This document shows positions 34,386-42,382 of a stretch of 64,000 nucleotides of DNA, piece by piece; position 1 is the stretch's first letter; every line of letters starts with the position of its first letter. Made by a program: the position numbers and the translations under genes. The stretch covers positions 36,750 through 100,749 of the forward strand of contig JAKQPS010000005.1 of the NCBI GenBank assembly GCA_029564595.1, written 5' to 3'. Source of the stretch: a bacterium (lineage in GTDB: Bacteria; UBP15; UBA6099). The notes under the pieces were generated by a model that ran no database searches, was not told the DNA's origin, and was given only the letters and a program-made list of their open reading frames with translations.

Positions 34386-34416
34386 ACCCTCCGGCAACGG
34401 AGGGTTTTCATTTTGT
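34386..34416. terminator. Bidirectional intrinsic terminator
   Basis: A perfect 9-bp stem (aaccctccg/cggagggtt) with a GCAA loop, followed on the plus strand by ttcatttt and on the minus strand by tgttt. It closes flgM from the left and the ECF-FmdE operon from the right, whose last stop is at 34408 inside the hairpin's end. Confidence 0.85.
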
Positions 34417-35112
34417 CGTGGAAAGCGATGTTCTTTCTTTATCGGTCGTCCGCCTATTACATGGAACATCGACTAAATCCAACTCTTTGCTTATGGAGCC
34501 GCCAGCGAACATGCCTTTCAACTCCATCGATATTGCAAGGTCATGGGATTTTCTCATTACAGATATCACAAGCGGGACTGCTAAAGGCAGCCAGTTCGAC
34601 AAGTTCAGCATTCGACGGAATTCAAAGCCTCTCGCCCTCTGCGCCTGATACACGGACATCGCTTCTTCGAACATCACCGGGAAAAACCTCAAGATTATCA
34701 GCATCATGAGGCACAGTTCCTGAGGAACGCGCATTCTTCTCAATGCTGAAGCGATTTCTCTCGGCTCAGTCGTGTAAACAAAGAAAAGATTCGCCAACAC
34801 CACGAAGTAAATCTTCAGGATAAAAAGAATGGAACCGGCAAAGCCGTCCGAGGCTGCGGTAGCCCAATCTTTGGAAACGCCATATTCGGATAATACAAAA
34901 ATTAATACTATAAATGGAAATCCGAAGGCTATTCGCCTGACAATAGTCATTATGCCGCTGAAGGATTCGGATAAAACCAAGCATGTGAAAACCATAGATA
35001 AGTTGAGGATCGCTAGAACGACCGTATCGTTAAAGTACAACGCCGCAATCAGACACAGGAGCAAGAAAAGCATTTTGGGGCCTGCCGGGGCCTTTTCAGC
35101 AAGATTCCTCAA
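34408..35112 (-). CDS. ECF transporter transmembrane component (EcfT)
   Basis: A 234-residue T component of an energy-coupling factor transporter, with five or six helices. The coupling motifs are ASALRRMRVPQEL (A-R-[AG]-like) and YQAQRARGFEF, the two Ala-Arg-Gly segments that contact the ATPases. The start is taken as TTG at 35112 because a good ribosome site (ggaggg) lies nine bases upstream; an upstream in-frame start at 35154 would overlap the ATPase gene by 59 bases. With this start the overlap is 17 bases, and coupling is likely. It completes the ECF set with the S and double-ATPase genes. Confidence 0.87.
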   Translation of the reverse strand: MRNLAEKAPAGPKMLFLLLCLIAALYFNDTVVLAILNLSMVFTCLVLSESFSGIMTIVRRIAFGFPFIVLIFVLSEYGVSKDWATAASDGFAGSILFILKIYFVVLANLFFVYTTEPREIASALRRMRVPQELCLMMLIILRFFPVMFEEAMSVYQAQRARGFEFRRMLNLSNWLPLAVPLVISVMRKSHDLAISMELKGMFAGGSISKELDLVDVPCNRRTTDKERTSLSTTK

Positions 35113-36532
35113 CGTACATTTCCCTCCAGTCGCTCGAAAAAAACTCCCGGACATCGCCGTCGAACACTTTTCGTCCGCTTCTTAGAAAAACCACTCTGGT
35201 CGCGAGCGCGCGCACAAGTCCGATATCGTGAGTGATAAACAACAACGCAGTTTCTTTCCCGCAGGTTTCTTTCAGAAAACTCGCCACCCTACGGGCGCTG
35301 AGCCGGTCAAGCCCGGCAACAGGTTCGTCCAAAGCGACGACTTCCGGAGCGTGGGCGAACGCGCTCGCAAGAGCCACCCTCTTCTTCTCGCCTTGGCTTA
35401 ATGTCAACGGCATCCTGTCCATCAATCGCGATATCCCGAGCGCTTCCGATATCTCGGACAACCTCGATTCCGCATCAGGCCCGTAGATGCCGAAATTCTT
35501 TGACGCGAACAAGCACTCGTCCCTTACGGTGGAGGAAAATAGCTGTCGGTCCGGGTTCTGAAAGGTATATCCTGTTCTTCTGGCAATTTCTTTTCTGGGA
35601 ACGCGCTTCGCGTTTTTTTCGAAAAGAAAAACCTCGCCTTCAGAAGGTTTCATCAAAGCGCATACGCACTTCGCCATGGTGCTCTTGCCTGCTCCGTTCG
35701 GACCAAGAACAGCCAGTCTCTCGCCGCGTCTTAACTTGACATCCATAGGGGCCATCGCCTTTGTCCGCTTTGAGTATGAATGGCCGGCTTTCTTAAATTC
35801 CACCACAGCGCCTGATGCTTCGACGGGAAGATATTGCTCAATTCTTTCCATATCCGATTCGTCGGATTTTTCTGCGATATCTTCGAGCCGCCCGTCATTA
35901 AGCGCATAAAGCTTGTCCGCGAATTCCATCATCATTTTGATGTCGTGCTCCACAATCACCACGGTCGCTCCGAGTTCGCGGTTTATCCTTTTTATTTCGC
36001 CGAGATAGACTTCCCTGCTGACTGGATCAAGACCTGACAGAGGTTCGTCGAGCAATAATATTTCAGGCTTCGGGGCTACTGCGCATGCCAGCGCAAGCTT
36101 CTGTTTCTCTCCCCATGAAAGCGTGTCCGTTTTTCTCGCCGCGAGGTTTCCAATGCCGAACTGATCCAAAACGCGCGCCGCCTCTTTTGTCGCGGCGGTT
36201 TTAGACATCCCTGTTTTTTCCAACTGCGACACTACTTCATCGATGACCCGCAAAGAGAAAAGCTGCGTGTCCGGGTTCTGAAAAACAGGTTCAATGTGCC
36301 GCCTGAATCTCGCAGGGTTCCTCTCGCCTGCGATAGAAATTTCCCCGGTGATTTTTCCTTTAATGAATTCCGGAGCAAGCCCAAGCAGAGCCATCATCAA
36401 TGTGGTTTTTCCGCAACCGGATTCACCTGTCAGAGCCGTAACGCTTCCTTTTTCCACTTTCAGGTTCAAGCCTTTCAGCGTGGGCTGGTCGCTGAACGCA
36501 TGAGTGAAATATAGGTTCTCAACCTGTATCAC
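35096..36532 (-). CDS. Fused double ECF ATPase (EcfA-EcfA')
   Basis: A 478-residue protein with two complete ABC ATPase domains. Domain 1 has Walker A GESGCGKTT, signature LSWGEKQKLALA and LLLDEPLSGLD; domain 2 has GPNGAGKST, LSQGEKKRVALA and VALDEPVAGLD. It powers the ECF transporter formed with the T and S components. The start chosen is GTG at 36532, which overlaps the preceding S-component stop (GTGA) and begins directly at the first ABC strand VIQVENLYFTH; a longer frame to 36676 would add a 48-residue stretch unrelated to ABC proteins. The fused form replaces the two separate EcfA genes of many genomes. Confidence 0.9.
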   Translation of the reverse strand: MIQVENLYFTHAFSDQPTLKGLNLKVEKGSVTALTGESGCGKTTLMMALLGLAPEFIKGKITGEISIAGERNPARFRRHIEPVFQNPDTQLFSLRVIDEVVSQLEKTGMSKTAATKEAARVLDQFGIGNLAARKTDTLSWGEKQKLALACAVAPKPEILLLDEPLSGLDPVSREVYLGEIKRINRELGATVVIVEHDIKMMMEFADKLYALNDGRLEDIAEKSDESDMERIEQYLPVEASGAVVEFKKAGHSYSKRTKAMAPMDVKLRRGERLAVLGPNGAGKSTMAKCVCALMKPSEGEVFLFEKNAKRVPRKEIARRTGYTFQNPDRQLFSSTVRDECLFASKNFGIYGPDAESRLSEISEALGISRLMDRMPLTLSQGEKKRVALASAFAHAPEVVALDEPVAGLDRLSARRVASFLKETCGKETALLFITHDIGLVRALATRVVFLRSGRKVFDGDVREFFSSDWREMYVEESC

Positions 36533-37119
36533 GACGAATTCCCGGAAATAGTCTTTGCTAGATAAGTGTCTTTGATGGATTGCCAGATTTTCAAACCCAA
36601 CAGAGCGCCGGCCGCATACACAATCATATTCGTGGCCATCTGCAAACCTAAAAGTATTTTCACAACCTTTGACCACGGGAACCCGAAAGCGACCCTCACC
36701 AGCATAAAAGCGGCAGTGGCCGCCGCGCCTCCTGCTACGGAAGCGAACGCGACTCTTACCGCCGGCCGGTTTTTGAACAATTCAAGAAGCGAATCGAGCA
36801 GTAATCCGTTTACTAGGGCGGGGATCAGTTTGACCGGCCCGGGCAGCCCTCCGAAAGATGTAGGCATCGCCAGCGTCGCGACTACTCCCCAGATAAGCTC
36901 ATATATCAATATCGTGCCGAACCGGTCTATCATCAACCGCGTCAATATCATGAACGCTGTAGGAAGTATCAAATCAAGTCGGATTATCTGATCGATTCCC
37001 GTAACGCCGAGCAAAGGCTTCACGACAAATCCCATGCCGACATCGGCCGCAACCATCAACGCTATGAACACAAGCTGAAAACTCGACCACTTGCCAAGCA
37101 TGTTTTTTTTCTGAGTCAA
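36529..37119 (-). CDS. ECF transporter substrate-binding (S) component
   Basis: A 196-residue membrane protein with six hydrophobic segments and an N-terminal FQLVFIALMVAADVGMGFVVK of the type that contacts EcfT. The loops carry LPTAFMILTRLMIDRFG and GGLPGPVKLIPALVNGLL. S components bind the vitamin or metal substrate, and this one does not match a family I can name. A TTG at 37119 overlapping the FmdE stop is used as the start because every junction in this operon overlaps; an ATG at 37101 is the alternative. Neighbouring FmdE genes suggest a metal- or cofactor-related substrate. Confidence 0.8.
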   Translation of the reverse strand: MTQKKNMLGKWSSFQLVFIALMVAADVGMGFVVKPLLGVTGIDQIIRLDLILPTAFMILTRLMIDRFGTILIYELIWGVVATLAMPTSFGGLPGPVKLIPALVNGLLLDSLLELFKNRPAVRVAFASVAGGAAATAAFMLVRVAFGFPWSKVVKILLGLQMATNMIVYAAGALLGLKIWQSIKDTYLAKTISGNSS

Positions 37120-37721
37120 TGTTGGACTTTTCCATCCGCGCAATCGGCGCAATATGCCCCGCCGTCCGCCTTAACCGTTCTCGGCTCCATCACTTTCTCG
37201 CCGCATGACGCGCATGTGAGAGTTTCATAAAGCATCGCCTTGTTCGGCGGCGGCGCGCTGACAGGCTTCATTTCCAGAATTGCTTCATCCGGCGCTTTCA
37301 ATATGTCGTCTATCGCTGATTTGCTCATTTCACGGAAAGATTCTATCTGACTCTTCGTGGCGGTTCCTCCGAAAACTGCTTTTCTCAGGTCGGCCTGTCC
37401 GGGGACTTCCTTTGGACGATAGTTTTCCAGTATTCTCACGCCGGCGCCTGTGTTACGATTATAGAATGTATATCCGCGTTTGCCGATATCTCTGAATTTC
37501 AAATTGCCTTTTCCGAAAGTGCATCCTGTTATCGCCTGTATTGCGTCCACCGCGCATGAGTCGTTCTCGACAACGCACACTATCTCCTCGTCTTCGGACC
37601 TATTGGCTTTCAACCATTCCATAGCCTTCAGAGCCACTCGATATCCCAATGCCGAGCCTATGCATGAGTGCCCGTGAAATTCCACAACATGCTCATAAGC
37701 CTTCGCGTTTTGATCCGCCAT
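37116..37721 (-). CDS. FmdE family protein with C-terminal zinc ribbon
   Basis: A 201-residue protein with an N-terminal FmdE domain (VVEFHGHSCIGSALGYRVAL, then CVVENDSCAVDAIQAITGCT and RDIGKRGYTFY) and a C-terminal zinc finger of four cysteines (CASCGEKVMEPRTVK...CADC). FmdE was named for a gene near molybdenum formylmethanofuran dehydrogenase in methanogens; its function is unsettled, but His/Cys clusters suggest metal or cofactor binding. No signal peptide, so it is cytoplasmic. It overlaps the ECF S gene by four bases and precedes it in the operon. Confidence 0.85.
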   Translation of the reverse strand: MADQNAKAYEHVVEFHGHSCIGSALGYRVALKAMEWLKANRSEDEEIVCVVENDSCAVDAIQAITGCTFGKGNLKFRDIGKRGYTFYNRNTGAGVRILENYRPKEVPGQADLRKAVFGGTATKSQIESFREMSKSAIDDILKAPDEAILEMKPVSAPPPNKAMLYETLTCASCGEKVMEPRTVKADGGAYCADCADGKVQH

Positions 37722-37767
37722 TAGCGCCTCCGATAATGTTACATATATAAATATTATAACAACTGGG

Positions 37768-38817
37768 CTATTTATACAACCCGACTAATTTGAACGGGGC
37801 TCCACCGGGAGCCAAGAGACGCTCGTATTCCTTTTCATCCGCAATCTCAATTTCCTTGATAAGTCTTACAAAATAATCCAATCGGTCGAGCCGCTCGAAT
37901 GCCCACAACGCCAGTTGGAGATTAGACAATTCAGGGTGTTTGTTCTCGCCCGCCCATTCAAAGAATTCGTCTTTATGAAAGTCAAAACCGAGAACAAGGA
38001 CTTTCGCCGACTTAAAAGCCCTGTTTTCTCTTTTTACCTTGATGAAAAAACCCGCGATGTCTCTAGCGACGTCTTCCGGCAAAGCCTTTTTCTGTTCATC
38101 AGTCCAACGCATGGCGAAATACCCGCCTTTTCCGGGCGTCACATCCAAGGCCGACATAAGGCTGTCCTCTTTGCACCAGTGCGGCAAACCTATTATGTTA
38201 TAATTTTCTCCTGCTTCGAGAGGCGCGTTTTTGAGCAGCCACTTGGCGATGATATAACCGCTGGTTACGCCCGGACAAAAATGGTTGTGAAACAGCGCTC
38301 CTTGAGTAAGATGCCACGGAGCTCCCGCGCTCCATGTGTTGGAATACCCGACTGCTGAATACGACATGTTTCCGCACGCTTCTTTGACCGCCGAATAATC
38401 AAGGTTCTTGGATAGTGTCACATCGACCGGCTTCGAAACATCTATCGAGCCGTCATCGCCGACGCTTCCGCATACGGACCGAAGACTTCCATCCTTGCTT
38501 TTCACCGTCACGACGAACCATGGCGACTCCCCCATCGAGGAATGAACATTGTACAGATTTCCGTCGCCTAGAGAACAACCGAACTTGCCGGCAAAAGGTT
38601 TAATTTCCTTTATAGTGTCGGAGCCTTTCCACCCGGCATATCCGGCATTGGTGGCGCATAGCGCGGAATCTCCCGGTTCGTACCCGATTGAAACGGCCGC
38701 CCGCTCCGCGAAACCTGCTCCGAATCCCAAATCTCCGCAGCATGCTGTCCGAGGCGAGAGCGCCAGCGCCGCAAGAATGAATGCTATTGATACTGCCGAC
38801 AAAATATTCGTTTTCAT
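37768..38817 (-). CDS. Secreted FmdE-domain protein
   Basis: A 349-residue protein with a signal peptide (residues 1-28, cut near ACCG) and a periplasmic FmdE-like domain. The diagnostic stretch LFHNHFCPGVTSGYIIAKWL lies about 175-194, followed by GLPHWCKEDSLMSAL with a Cys. A short N-terminal unit with Cys-containing strands precedes it. Two FmdE paralogues on opposite sides of the inner membrane, with a TonB receptor and an ECF transporter between and behind them, suggest a relay for one substrate. It lies 58 bases after the TonB receptor gene. Confidence 0.82.
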   Translation of the reverse strand: MKTNILSAVSIAFILAALALSPRTACCGDLGFGAGFAERAAVSIGYEPGDSALCATNAGYAGWKGSDTIKEIKPFAGKFGCSLGDGNLYNVHSSMGESPWFVVTVKSKDGSLRSVCGSVGDDGSIDVSKPVDVTLSKNLDYSAVKEACGNMSYSAVGYSNTWSAGAPWHLTQGALFHNHFCPGVTSGYIIAKWLLKNAPLEAGENYNIIGLPHWCKEDSLMSALDVTPGKGGYFAMRWTDEQKKALPEDVARDIAGFFIKVKRENRAFKSAKVLVLGFDFHKDEFFEWAGENKHPELSNLQLALWAFERLDRLDYFVRLIKEIEIADEKEYERLLAPGGAPFKLVGLYK

Positions 38818-38875
38818 GAAAACTCCTTTTGCCTGCTAAATAAGTTGCTCGTTCATGTACATCGGCTGCGGCCTG

Positions 38876-40951
38876 TTAAAACTCGTAATCAGCTTTCAGT
38901 TCCCAATTTATGCCGACCGTTCTGGTTGCTGAATTGATATGAACCTTGTTGAAAAGGTTGTTCGCTTCCAAAGTCAATTTCATATCTTCTCGAATATGCT
39001 TAGAAGCTTGAGCGTCCGCCCAGAAATATGCTTTGTTGATCGAAGTGTTGTCTTCGCTCGAATAGCTGTTGCCGACATATCTCAAGTTGAACGAAAAACT
39101 TCTGTCCATCGGATGGTTCATAATGAATCCGATGTTCGATTTGATTTTCGGAGCGTTCGTGAAGTATTTGCCCTGAATGGCGATGAGGTCCGGATCCTCA
39201 GTCGCAAAGTATCCTACTTTTGCGTGATTCATAGTCGTATTGAAATAGACTTTCGTGAAAGCCGTAGTCATATAAGACATTTCATATTCAACCCCGTATA
39301 TTTTCGCTTCGCCGAGGTTTACCCAATCATAGACCGGCCTGCCGCCCATAGTCGCGCCGGAATCAACGCTGTATATGAAATCTTTGCCTATGTTGTAGTA
39401 AAAATTCAGAGCCTTTCCGAATTTGGCGCCGTAGTGGTCTATTCCGACTTCAAAGCTGTGAATCTCTTCAGGTTCCAGTTCGGGATTAAGCTCGTATATC
39501 CTTCCCCTGAAGATTCCCCTCCTCGTGAGCGAGTCCAGAATCGGCGCGTGGAACGCGTTTCCATAGCTCACGCGCAATTTCGTCTTTTCGCTTGTGAAGT
39601 GAACTACCCCCACGGACGGGCTGACATGAGTCCATGACTTGTCATCGGGCGACGCCGTCCCCATGAATCCGGTCTGGTCTTTGTATTCGACGCCGGTCAC
39701 TTCAGCTCTGTCGAACCTCAGCCCGAAATTCATGTCCGTTTTTTCCGTCAAAGCGACAGTGTCGCGAGCATATAAAGCGGCGGTCTTCATATTTCCCATA
39801 TTGGTAACGGACAATGTGGAAGGAGCGTAATTGTAATAATCATAATCGTCCGCGGCTTCAATTGAGGCAATCGAGTAACCAACGCCAGCCGTAACATTAT
39901 GAGCGGCAATATTCCATGTATTATGAGCGTCTATGCCTCTATCCTCGCGTTTGGAATCTACCAGATAACGGTTTCTCAAAGCCGGAAATCCGCCGCTTGT
40001 TCCTGTGGTTTCTCGAAGCCACTTGTAATCTTCTCTGTTATAAAACAAATCCGTCTTGAATGTTCCCGAGGAGTTCGGCTTGCTGTATGAAATCTGATGC
40101 CGGGTTCCATCGTATTCTCTGTATTGGCCGTCCGGATGCGCTTCGGCGTAAATCGACGGGTCCAACGCAGAGCCGAGACCTCTAAAATCATCATATATAC
40201 CGATTGAGTATTCTATCGCCGACCCTGATTCGCCTAACTGGCTTCTCGCTTTTGCAAAAAAGTGTCTTTCCGTTATTTGCGTGTTGTCCGAACCGTATGC
40301 CTCGCGGTTTTCTGGCAGATCGCCGTTGAATCCCTGTGTGAACATATTCGACGTCGAAAACAACAAATCTACCTTCTGAATACCGCCTGTAAGTGTAAGC
40401 TTCTGCTTCAACGTCTCAAATGTTCCACCTGAGAGCGAAAGTGTGCCGCCGAATTCTCTTTCGGGGGTTTTCGTGATTATGTTGATGACACCGCCCATCG
40501 CGTGAGCGCCGTAAAGAGCTGACGCCGGGCCTCTGGCGATCTCAATCCTCTCGATGTTGCCGGGGTCTATAGACCTGAAATTGGCATCTCCTGAGTCGGA
40601 ATTGTTGAGTTGCATTCCATCTAACAGAACCAATGTCCTTGCCATGTCGCTGCTCATCCCTCGCATCGAAACTCCGCCTTTGTGCTCGAACATGCCGCTT
40701 GAAACCGAGACATCGATTCCGGCGAGCATCCCAAGCAAATCGTCAATGTTCTGCAACGGCAACGCTTCCAGTTGTTCTTTACTAATAATCACCACGCTCA
40801 CTGGCGCGCTTTCGATGCTCTGAGCGACTTTCGTCGCCGTGACCGTTATTTCTCCGAGGTCTATCGCTTCGTTTGCGCTTTGAGTGAAAGCATTTGTGCC
40901 GATTAAAACAGCCGCGACTACAGCAACGAACGCTATTGTCACCTTTTTCAT
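38876..40951 (-). CDS. TonB-dependent outer membrane receptor
   Basis: A 691-residue receptor. A signal peptide (about 1-23) leads to a plug domain: IDLGEITVTATKV resembles a TonB box, then VVIISKEQLEALPLQNIDDLLGMLAGIDV and GMQLNNSDSGDANFRSIDPGNIERIEIARGPASALYGAHAMGGVINI. A 22-strand barrel follows and ends in an aromatic YEF. It imports a bulky ligand with TonB energy; the barrel is of the siderophore/cobalamin type. The start is ATG at 40951 with ggagg upstream. An RNA leader with a terminator-like hairpin precedes it, and the FmdE/ECF genes follow. Ligand unknown. Confidence 0.92.
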   Translation of the reverse strand: MKKVTIAFVAVVAAVLIGTNAFTQSANEAIDLGEITVTATKVAQSIESAPVSVVIISKEQLEALPLQNIDDLLGMLAGIDVSVSSGMFEHKGGVSMRGMSSDMARTLVLLDGMQLNNSDSGDANFRSIDPGNIERIEIARGPASALYGAHAMGGVINIITKTPEREFGGTLSLSGGTFETLKQKLTLTGGIQKVDLLFSTSNMFTQGFNGDLPENREAYGSDNTQITERHFFAKARSQLGESGSAIEYSIGIYDDFRGLGSALDPSIYAEAHPDGQYREYDGTRHQISYSKPNSSGTFKTDLFYNREDYKWLRETTGTSGGFPALRNRYLVDSKREDRGIDAHNTWNIAAHNVTAGVGYSIASIEAADDYDYYNYAPSTLSVTNMGNMKTAALYARDTVALTEKTDMNFGLRFDRAEVTGVEYKDQTGFMGTASPDDKSWTHVSPSVGVVHFTSEKTKLRVSYGNAFHAPILDSLTRRGIFRGRIYELNPELEPEEIHSFEVGIDHYGAKFGKALNFYYNIGKDFIYSVDSGATMGGRPVYDWVNLGEAKIYGVEYEMSYMTTAFTKVYFNTTMNHAKVGYFATEDPDLIAIQGKYFTNAPKIKSNIGFIMNHPMDRSFSFNLRYVGNSYSSEDNTSINKAYFWADAQASKHIREDMKLTLEANNLFNKVHINSATRTVGINWELKADYEF

Positions 40952-41210
40952 AATTGTCACAACCTCCATTGTTTATTATTGTTATAACATCTATATCAAA
41001 CCTGGGACCGGCGAGATATAAAAATGACGGGAAGACTTTGATGTCTTCCCGTTTTCCAAGGAGAGGCATTTAAAAGAAAGACGCTTTGGAAACGCCTGTA
41101 TATCATATTCGGGCGAATCTCGTCTCGCATAGCCGTTCTAAACGCTCAACTTTGCCATATCGTTAGTGTTATGTTTGCCACATTCATAACACGCGCATAA
41201 TACGCGAATT
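40952..41210 (-). promoter_or_regulatory. Candidate regulatory RNA leader with attenuator-like terminator
   Basis: Read on the minus strand, this 258-base leader ends in a perfect 10-bp hairpin (acgggaagac/gtcttcccgt, 41027-41052, loop of six) followed by atttttat. It lies 75 bases before the receptor start. Just upstream are mutually exclusive pairings: a 7-bp stem ggcgttt/aaatgcc (41090-41096 with 41065-41071, one G-U) and a 7-bp stem tttccaa/ttggaaa (41086-41092 with 41053-41059). They share three bases. This alternation is typical of riboswitch or attenuator leaders. The family is not certain; a Moco-type element is one option. Confidence 0.5.
41027..41052 (-). terminator. Intrinsic terminator hairpin in the leader
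   Basis: Ten perfect base pairs, six-base loop, followed by a run of five T on the minus strand. It lies between the M50 gene (ending at 41264) and the TonB receptor, so it can either end the M50 transcript or attenuate the receptor operon. Confidence 0.75.
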
Positions 41211-41263
41211 TTAGCAATGTGTCAACAATGGTTTAGAATTATTATTGTTTTGAGCGAGACTTC

Positions 41264-42382
41264 TCAGGTGAACTTTATCGGAACCGGCATGAAGCAGAGA
41301 ACAAAAAGAATCAGTCCTACGGCCGCCCATAGCTTCGAGGATGGAGAGACCGGTTTGCCTTCGTTCATTGTAGGGGGAATACCTCGAACTGTTATCAAGT
41401 ATCCTATCAAAGACCAGACATACCAGCCGTGCCAGAAACGCCCCATGACCGCCATGCCCACTATGAGAATCCAGCATAGGTATCTGAACCGCGTGTCTCC
41501 GAGCAATGCGCGAGCCAGATGGCCGCCGTCGAACTGCCCGACTGGTATAAGATTCAGCCCAGTGACGAATATGCCCACCCAAGCTGCTATAGCCATAGGA
41601 TGAAAAAACAAATGCTGCCCTTCGGGAACTTTAATAAGAAGTCCGCCGATGACCGAGGTGAAAATCGAATTGCCGAACATAATCATGTCGCCTTGTGCCT
41701 CTGGGGCGGAGACAGGTCTGGACAGAAGGACGCCGGCGATGAAAAATGGCACGGCGACAATAAAACCGGCCAAAGGCCCGCTGATGCCTAACCTTACCGC
41801 CGCGTCTTTGTCGGGGATAGGAGACCTGATTCTGATTACCGCTCCCATCGTTCCGATTATTGACGGAAACGGAATAAAATACGGCGGCGACGCGTCTATG
41901 CCGTATCTTAAAGAAGCGAAGTAATGGCCCGATTCATGCGCGCCCAATATCAACAACAAGGAAAGAGAAAAGCTGAAGGCTCCCACCCATATCCCGCGGG
42001 TGTGTCCTGCTTCATACATGGACGTCGAAAAAACCCAGCCCGCAAAAGTTGTCGAAACCAGAGTAGCCGCGAACAGCAATACCGCCTTGATATTTTCTTT
42101 GCGGCGCGTCTCCGCCGTAGGCCCCTTGAAGACTTCCAGAGAGCCTATCCCGCGCCCGTCCTTTCCCATTACTAAAGACAGCTTGAAACCCGTCGCCGCA
42201 AACTCATACGCTGCCGCCCTCCTCGCGCCTGTCATCGCTGAGAACGCGAACTTAATCGCGTCTCCTTTTAATGCGACGTTATCGACCGCGAAATACTTGT
42301 CCATGATTTCGCGCAACCGATAATACTTCTCGGTTTCTATGGGCGTGAAGTTGAGCGGCTGTTCGCCGGAGAAATGTTCCAT
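41264..42382 (-). CDS. M50 family site-2-protease-type membrane metalloprotease
   Basis: A 372-residue intramembrane protease. A soluble N-terminal part (about 1-95) precedes five or six helices. The zinc motif is AHESGHYFASL (HESGH), and the second motif GLNLIPVGQFDGGHLARAL contains the NxxPxxxxDGG aspartate ligand. These enzymes cleave membrane-bound regulators or process signal peptides. A histidine-rich ligand set is intact, so activity is expected. It precedes the leader of the TonB receptor but has its own likely unit; no regulator such as an anti-sigma factor is next to it. Confidence 0.88.
   Translation of the reverse strand: MEHFSGEQPLNFTPIETEKYYRLREIMDKYFAVDNVALKGDAIKFAFSAMTGARRAAAYEFAATGFKLSLVMGKDGRGIGSLEVFKGPTAETRRKENIKAVLLFAATLVSTTFAGWVFSTSMYEAGHTRGIWVGAFSFSLSLLLILGAHESGHYFASLRYGIDASPPYFIPFPSIIGTMGAVIRIRSPIPDKDAAVRLGISGPLAGFIVAVPFFIAGVLLSRPVSAPEAQGDMIMFGNSIFTSVIGGLLIKVPEGQHLFFHPMAIAAWVGIFVTGLNLIPVGQFDGGHLARALLGDTRFRYLCWILIVGMAVMGRFWHGWYVWSLIGYLITVRGIPPTMNEGKPVSPSSKLWAAVGLILFVLCFMPVPIKFT

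Follow-up and report, generated by a model that had tools for sequence, protein, structure and literature searches.

What does a bacterial operon take up when it joins a TonB-dependent outer-membrane receptor, two FmdE proteins, and an energy-coupling factor (ECF) transporter, and what do the FmdE proteins do in it? The question is raised by a 64,000-nucleotide stretch of contig JAKQPS010000005.1 (assembly GCA_029564595.1, GTDB lineage UBP15; UBA6099), hereafter the window. Gene calls and Pfam searches bear out the six minus-strand genes described in the initial annotation, in the order claimed there: the receptor, a secreted FmdE (FmdEs), a cytoplasmic FmdE with a C-terminal C4 zinc finger (FmdEc), and the S, fused A-A, and T components of the transporter (EcfS, EcfA-A, and EcfT). 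We consider it likely that the operon is a NikR-repressed, TonB-dependent uptake system for a nickel chelate, in which FmdE serves as a periplasmic and a cytoplasmic binder of nickel or a nickel complex. From the sequence we infer that NikR binds, that nickel is the cargo and travels as a chelate, and that both FmdE proteins act as binders and chaperones.

The operon is headed by a sigma-70-type promoter, TTGACA-17-TATTAT (41225–41197), which matches the consensus at 11 of 12 positions and is the top score in the scanned region. Four bases past its -10 hexamer lies a palindrome, GTGTTATGAATGTGGCAAACATAACAC (GTGTTAT-N13-ATAACAC, 41192–41166), which covers the expected transcription start and is absent from the initial annotation. 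Rodionov and co-workers derived the delta-proteobacterial NikR operator as GTGTTAC-N13/14-GTAACAC, with GTGTTAt variants at nikMQO (PMC545781). The everted form, GTAACAC-N13-GTGTTAC, is likewise documented (PMC545781). Scored on this delta-proteobacterial consensus, the palindrome has no mismatches to GTGTTAY-N12-14-RTAACAC. Scanned with that pattern, the 4.4-Mb genome of the window (G000) yields a single exact locus, ahead of the operon; six relatives that do not carry the operon yield none. From base composition, we estimate that chance would give roughly 0.3 exact matches in a genome and 2e-5 in a 300-bp leader; a reversed-pattern control gives no matches in any genome scanned. The palindrome is most likely a NikR-type operator, to which NikR would bind.

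NikR itself is encoded in G000 (G000:C131:235847-236074; PF08753, 95 bits), as well as in all six relatives and in the Armatimonadota genome G386. The everted motif GTAACAC-N13-GTRTTAC occurs at one locus in G000 (L184, G000:C143:104699-104725), and a CbiM-type transporter gene lies about 70 bp downstream. G001, G002, G003, and G005 likewise have the motif ahead of CbiM, and the site ahead of CbiM is the sole match in four of these five genomes; no everted site is found in the other FmdE loci. The conserved everted pair supports a NikR half-site of this kind in the window's lineage. Given a motif conserved in G005 as well as in the genus, the CbiM-type system of G000 probably transports nickel. 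A nickel carbon monoxide (CO) dehydrogenase, CooS, is present in G000 (667 bits, cut-off 478). NiFe hydrogenase was ruled out as a nickel user there, its gene being absent.

The same arrangement recurs in an unrelated genome. Searching genome contigs for the FmdEc family gave 80 loci. Locus L041 of G386 encodes ExbD, a TonB protein, a TonB receptor, FmdE, EcfS, EcfA-A, and EcfT in the same order as the window, so the succession of receptor, FmdE, and EcfS exists elsewhere, with ExbD and TonB added. The receptors are 30% identical (670 aa), the FmdE proteins 53%, the S components 39%, the A-A proteins 37%, and the T components 42% (146 aa). G386 has a single exact NikR operator, which heads the L041 operon behind a TTGACA box. 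Therefore, two unrelated genomes agree on gene order and operator.

The FmdE loci extend the link to nickel beyond these two genomes. Four exact NikR sites are found in the fetched FmdE loci, compared with none in each of five shuffles, and all four head FmdE operons (L041; L047, with the order NikR-NikM-Q-O-FmdE; L066; and L055). A search allowing two mismatches was no better than chance (34 sites observed versus 35–64 in shuffles) and was rejected; the sites used are the exact ones and a one-mismatch site ahead of nikR in L054. In the Nitrospirota loci L047, L054, and L066, genes for NikR, CbiM-type NikM, and NikO accompany FmdE, with exact or one-mismatch NikR sites ahead. In the Syntrophomonadaceae locus L055, the exact site is 48 bp ahead of FmdE-SBP5-DppB, the last two being NikA-like and NikB-like. 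The Desulfobacula locus L077 has a TonB receptor and a NikABCDE-like importer after FmdE. The Sporomusa-type loci L086, L133, and L134 resemble the window in combining a TonB receptor with a secreted FmdE (one gene lies between them in L134), with an ABC importer nearby and FmdEc nearby in L086 and L133. They differ in that the importer is FecBCD- or NikABCDE-like rather than ECF and that a methyltransferase gene is added in L086 and L133; no NikR is found in the Sporomusa acidovorans genome. The importer type differs among these loci, indicating that the importer changes while FmdE stays. FmdE and ECF genes co-occur outside the window, NikM-Q-O included, so that the lack of co-occurrence that would have refuted the initial annotation is not seen, and its proposal that a single transcript serves all layers of the envelope is backed by L041 and by the Sporomusa-type clusters of receptor, FmdE, and importer. 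Two Nitrospirota loci also encode exported proteins with a conserved MHP motif after the signal region (L066:235-1020 and L054:5743-6513), inside NikR-controlled NikM operons; these are possibly outer-membrane components.

FmdEc (37721–37116) matches Pfam FmdE (E 2e-42) and zf-dskA_traR (E 1e-7), and its relatives in the PDB are 2glz, 3d00, and 2gvi. As in these members of family PF02663, it has an FHGHxC motif, a second Cys, and a C-terminal zinc finger. The motif and the second Cys are invariant, and residues H16, H18, C20, and C56 correspond to the ligands of the solved family members. In 2glz, the same four residues hold a mixed zinc/nickel site (PMC2954224). The operon also shares with the family its frequent metal-ion transporter neighbors: Axelrod and co-workers reported in 2010 that most FmdE genes adjoin such genes (PMC2954224). 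FmdEs (38817–37768; Pfam FmdE, E 1.4e-10) differs from the family in being exported, as judged from an N-terminal signal-peptide-like stretch, and in having two tandem FmdE-like domains. The second domain keeps the HxHxC motif and the Cys (H177, H179, C181, and C215, invariant in four members). In a profile comparison, the N-terminal half also aligns with FmdE (hhalign probability 85%, E 7e-6), and it has no His/Cys site. FmdEs looks like a tandem FmdE pair that has lost one metal site. Its structural model is of low confidence (predicted local distance difference test, pLDDT, 60), and the top Foldseek match is 2glz (probability 1.00, E 5e-3). In the open-access papers searched, we found no link of FmdE to TonB, NikR sites, ECF transporters, or functional nickel uptake.

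The receptor (40951–38876) contains the Plug (PF07715, E 5e-28) and TonB_dep_Rec β-barrel (PF00593, E 4e-41) domains, and its ATG at 40951 has a GGAGG about 8 nt upstream. EcfA-A (36532–35096) is composed of two ABC_tran domains, and the Walker A and signature motifs are intact in each. EcfT (35112–34408) belongs to the CbiQ family (E 6.7e-32) and has the ARG and LKG coupling motifs; its longest open reading frame starts at 35154. The putative S component (37119–36529, starting at TTG 37119 or ATG 37101) is placed by its position and its conservation in L041. It matches no Pfam or NCBIfam family, no S-component model up to E 10, and no PDB relative; it did not group with a known vitamin family, an outcome that the initial annotation had named as refuting. 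It is not NikM-like either, with no match to PF01891 (CbiM/NikM) and an hhalign probability of 0.2% to a NikM set. The AlphaFold model has six helices, but is of low confidence (pLDDT 50) because relatives are few. EcfS contains neither His nor Cys and has several hydrophobic segments; the L041 protein has one His and one Cys, neither with a counterpart in the window. Therefore, NikM-type ligation of bare nickel is unlikely. An S component of this composition together with a TonB receptor suggests that the cargo would be a chelate.

The proposed pathway would run as follows. When nickel is low, NikR would come off the palindrome that covers the start of transcription, allowing the operon to be transcribed. 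The TonB-dependent receptor would bring a nickel chelate through the outer membrane, and FmdEs would bind nickel or the nickel complex in the periplasm through its HxHxC motif and Cys. EcfS, with EcfA-A and EcfT, would move the metal, free or still complexed, through the inner membrane. FmdEc would receive the cargo and deliver it to nickel-dependent enzymes, CO dehydrogenase among them. A wider form of this proposal, which we hold tentatively and think rather doubtful as a general rule, is that FmdE proteins are general carriers of nickel or nickel chelates that can serve any importer. In the window, FmdEs would then pass an intact nickel chelate from the TonB receptor to a new EcfS family without metal-ligating His or Cys, and FmdEc would strip or store the metal. 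If this is true, a metal chelate would have its own complete path through the envelope, with an ECF transporter as the inner-membrane step.

Several observations weigh against nickel-chelate uptake. Metal occupancy in a crystal alone is no proof of a nickel role. A recognized importer lies within 4 kb in 20 of the 68 FmdE loci with enough flank, and most of the FmdE orthologues sampled have no recognized nickel system beside them. Cobalamin riboswitches occur near some FmdE systems and FecBCD importers near methanogen ones; other metals or corrinoids are possible cargoes in these riboswitch- or FecBCD-linked systems. A CbiM-type transporter under NikR regulation already exists in the lineage. 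At the locus corresponding to 34408–41264 of the window, the sister genome G001 has no receptor, FmdEs, or ECF genes.

Could the cargo instead be cobalt, a corrinoid, or another tetrapyrrole, with NikR merely coordinating nickel and cobalt uptake? The receptor is distantly similar to heme and BtuB receptors, but at the superfamily level only, and the T component is CbiQ-like. Cobalamin riboswitches do occur in Sporomusa-type surroundings of FmdE, TonB, and NikA-like genes (L106:5980-7624, with CbiK and CbiZ genes, and L133:4059-4240), hinting at cobalt or corrinoid versions of the system. However, the window and its leader contain no riboswitch, and the operator is of the type bound by a nickel repressor, which makes this alternative improbable for the operon. 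As a separate observation, six Methanomicrobiales loci (L042, L049, L058, L060, L062, and L070) have the order FecB-FecCD-ATPase-FmdE together with a TsaA/UPF0066 gene.

The zinc finger of FmdEc raises the question whether it is a nickel-dependent transcription factor or another regulator of the operon rather than a metal receiver. A regulatory role was raised by Axelrod and co-workers (PMC2954224), and FmdEc is the protein kept alone in G001. Its gene, however, lies inside the operon between those of FmdEs and EcfS, regulation is already explained by NikR, and the secreted two-domain relative, without a zinc finger, cannot be a DNA-binding regulator. We regard a regulator as unlikely, and a role in receiving nickel fits better.

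Least probable, and hard to reconcile with the locus, is the initial annotation's suggestion that the cargo is a compound of molybdenum or tungsten, or a precursor of their cofactor: FmdE is named after an operon for molybdenum formylmethanofuran dehydrogenase (PMC2954224), and some FmdE proteins are fused to MoeA-like domains or neighbor a ModE-like regulator, but no molybdenum or tungsten regulator or site is seen at the operon, its operator is NikR-type and unique in the genome, orthologues of the window's FmdE subfamily sit with NikR and NikM-Q-O, and the ModE-linked FmdE of L025 is a weak match (95 bits, versus 341 for G001), so that operator, NikR, and orthologue neighbors point to nickel. 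The MoeA- and ModE-associated proteins (L024:7088-8938, L026:8869-10494, and L025:8040-8984) form another subfamily, and different FmdE subfamilies, judging by their neighbors, probably serve different metals.

Among known systems, the operon resembles NikMNQO/NikMQO of delta-proteobacteria, where an ECF transporter likewise follows a NikR site with this consensus; FmdE comes after NikR-NikM-Q-O in the Nitrospirota loci. The operon differs in that its EcfS is outside the CbiM/NikM family (PF01891, with an N-terminal MHI motif) and lacks His and Cys, its A subunits are fused, and the receptor and FmdEs are within the operon. In Helicobacter pylori, NikR-controlled TonB-dependent nickel uptake involves FrpB4, FecA3, and ExbB-ExbD-TonB, and NikR controls TonB/ExbBD (PMC5385501). 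A nickel-repressed TonB receptor, as predicted here, is common to both. No FmdE is described in the H. pylori system, whereas in the window the receptor, an FmdE pair, and an importer are joined in one operon. The inner-membrane nickel step of H. pylori is not known to be an ECF transporter. NikR-run TonB nickel uptake is thus already known in H. pylori; what sets the operon apart is its pair of FmdE proteins, its ECF step, and the family of its S component.

The operon is bounded by an M50-type protease gene (42382–41264) and a two-sided terminator with a 10-bp stem (34407–34384), which stands directly after EcfT as claimed. The receptor and FmdEs genes are separated by 58 bp, and the two FmdE genes by 46 bp. 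The overlaps of 4 to 17 bases reported for the last four genes hold at the likeliest starts (TTG 37119 for EcfS and TTG 35112 for EcfT): 4 bp for FmdEc/EcfS, 4 bp for EcfS/EcfA-A, and 17 bp for EcfA-A/EcfT.

Between the promoter under predicted NikR control and the first start codon, the leader forms a terminator-like hairpin (41052–41027) with a 10-bp stem and a T-run, and folds more stably than shuffled sequences (z -3.3). The hairpin of the attenuator-like leader described initially is borne out. Folding with the 3' arm blocked gives no strong antiterminator that competes with the hairpin (-30.5 versus -45.3 kcal/mol); therefore, we do not claim an attenuator. No comparable hairpin lies between operator and first gene in L041. 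The hairpin may be an attenuator or an insulator from the upstream gene. A leader scan for known RNA families had been suggested; Rfam gave no riboswitch in the window or leader, tRNAs only, the top leader match being on the wrong strand and below the cut-off.

Single-protein searches of 386 genomes with EcfS and FmdEs gave weak matches elsewhere, the top EcfS match being spurious on inspection, and an EcfS profile search across 251 genomes of the L041 phylum found G386 alone. EcfS and FmdEs are not found in plasmids, nor FmdEs in viral contigs. In G001, the flanks are 91–95% identical to the window in DNA, and FmdEc alone (74% identical; L020:3447-4119) lies between the protease and FlgM-side genes. 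G001 and the window differ here by a natural insertion or deletion. The window's FmdEc is joined by those of G001 and G005 in the tree of this protein, apart from L041, and loss in G001 is therefore at least as likely as gain in the window. The same tree lends no support to a recent transfer of the whole cassette between the window's lineage and that of L041.

Structures of FmdE (PF02663) have been available since 2006–2010, and the family has no agreed function. The NikR operators would place the window's FmdE in nickel acquisition. The operon predicts a part in nickel import for an ECF S component outside the NikM family, and it predicts that an ECF importer may have an outer-membrane gate of its own. 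In anaerobic settings, the home of many of the related genomes, the supply of nickel is important for CO dehydrogenase, hydrogenase, and methanogenesis.

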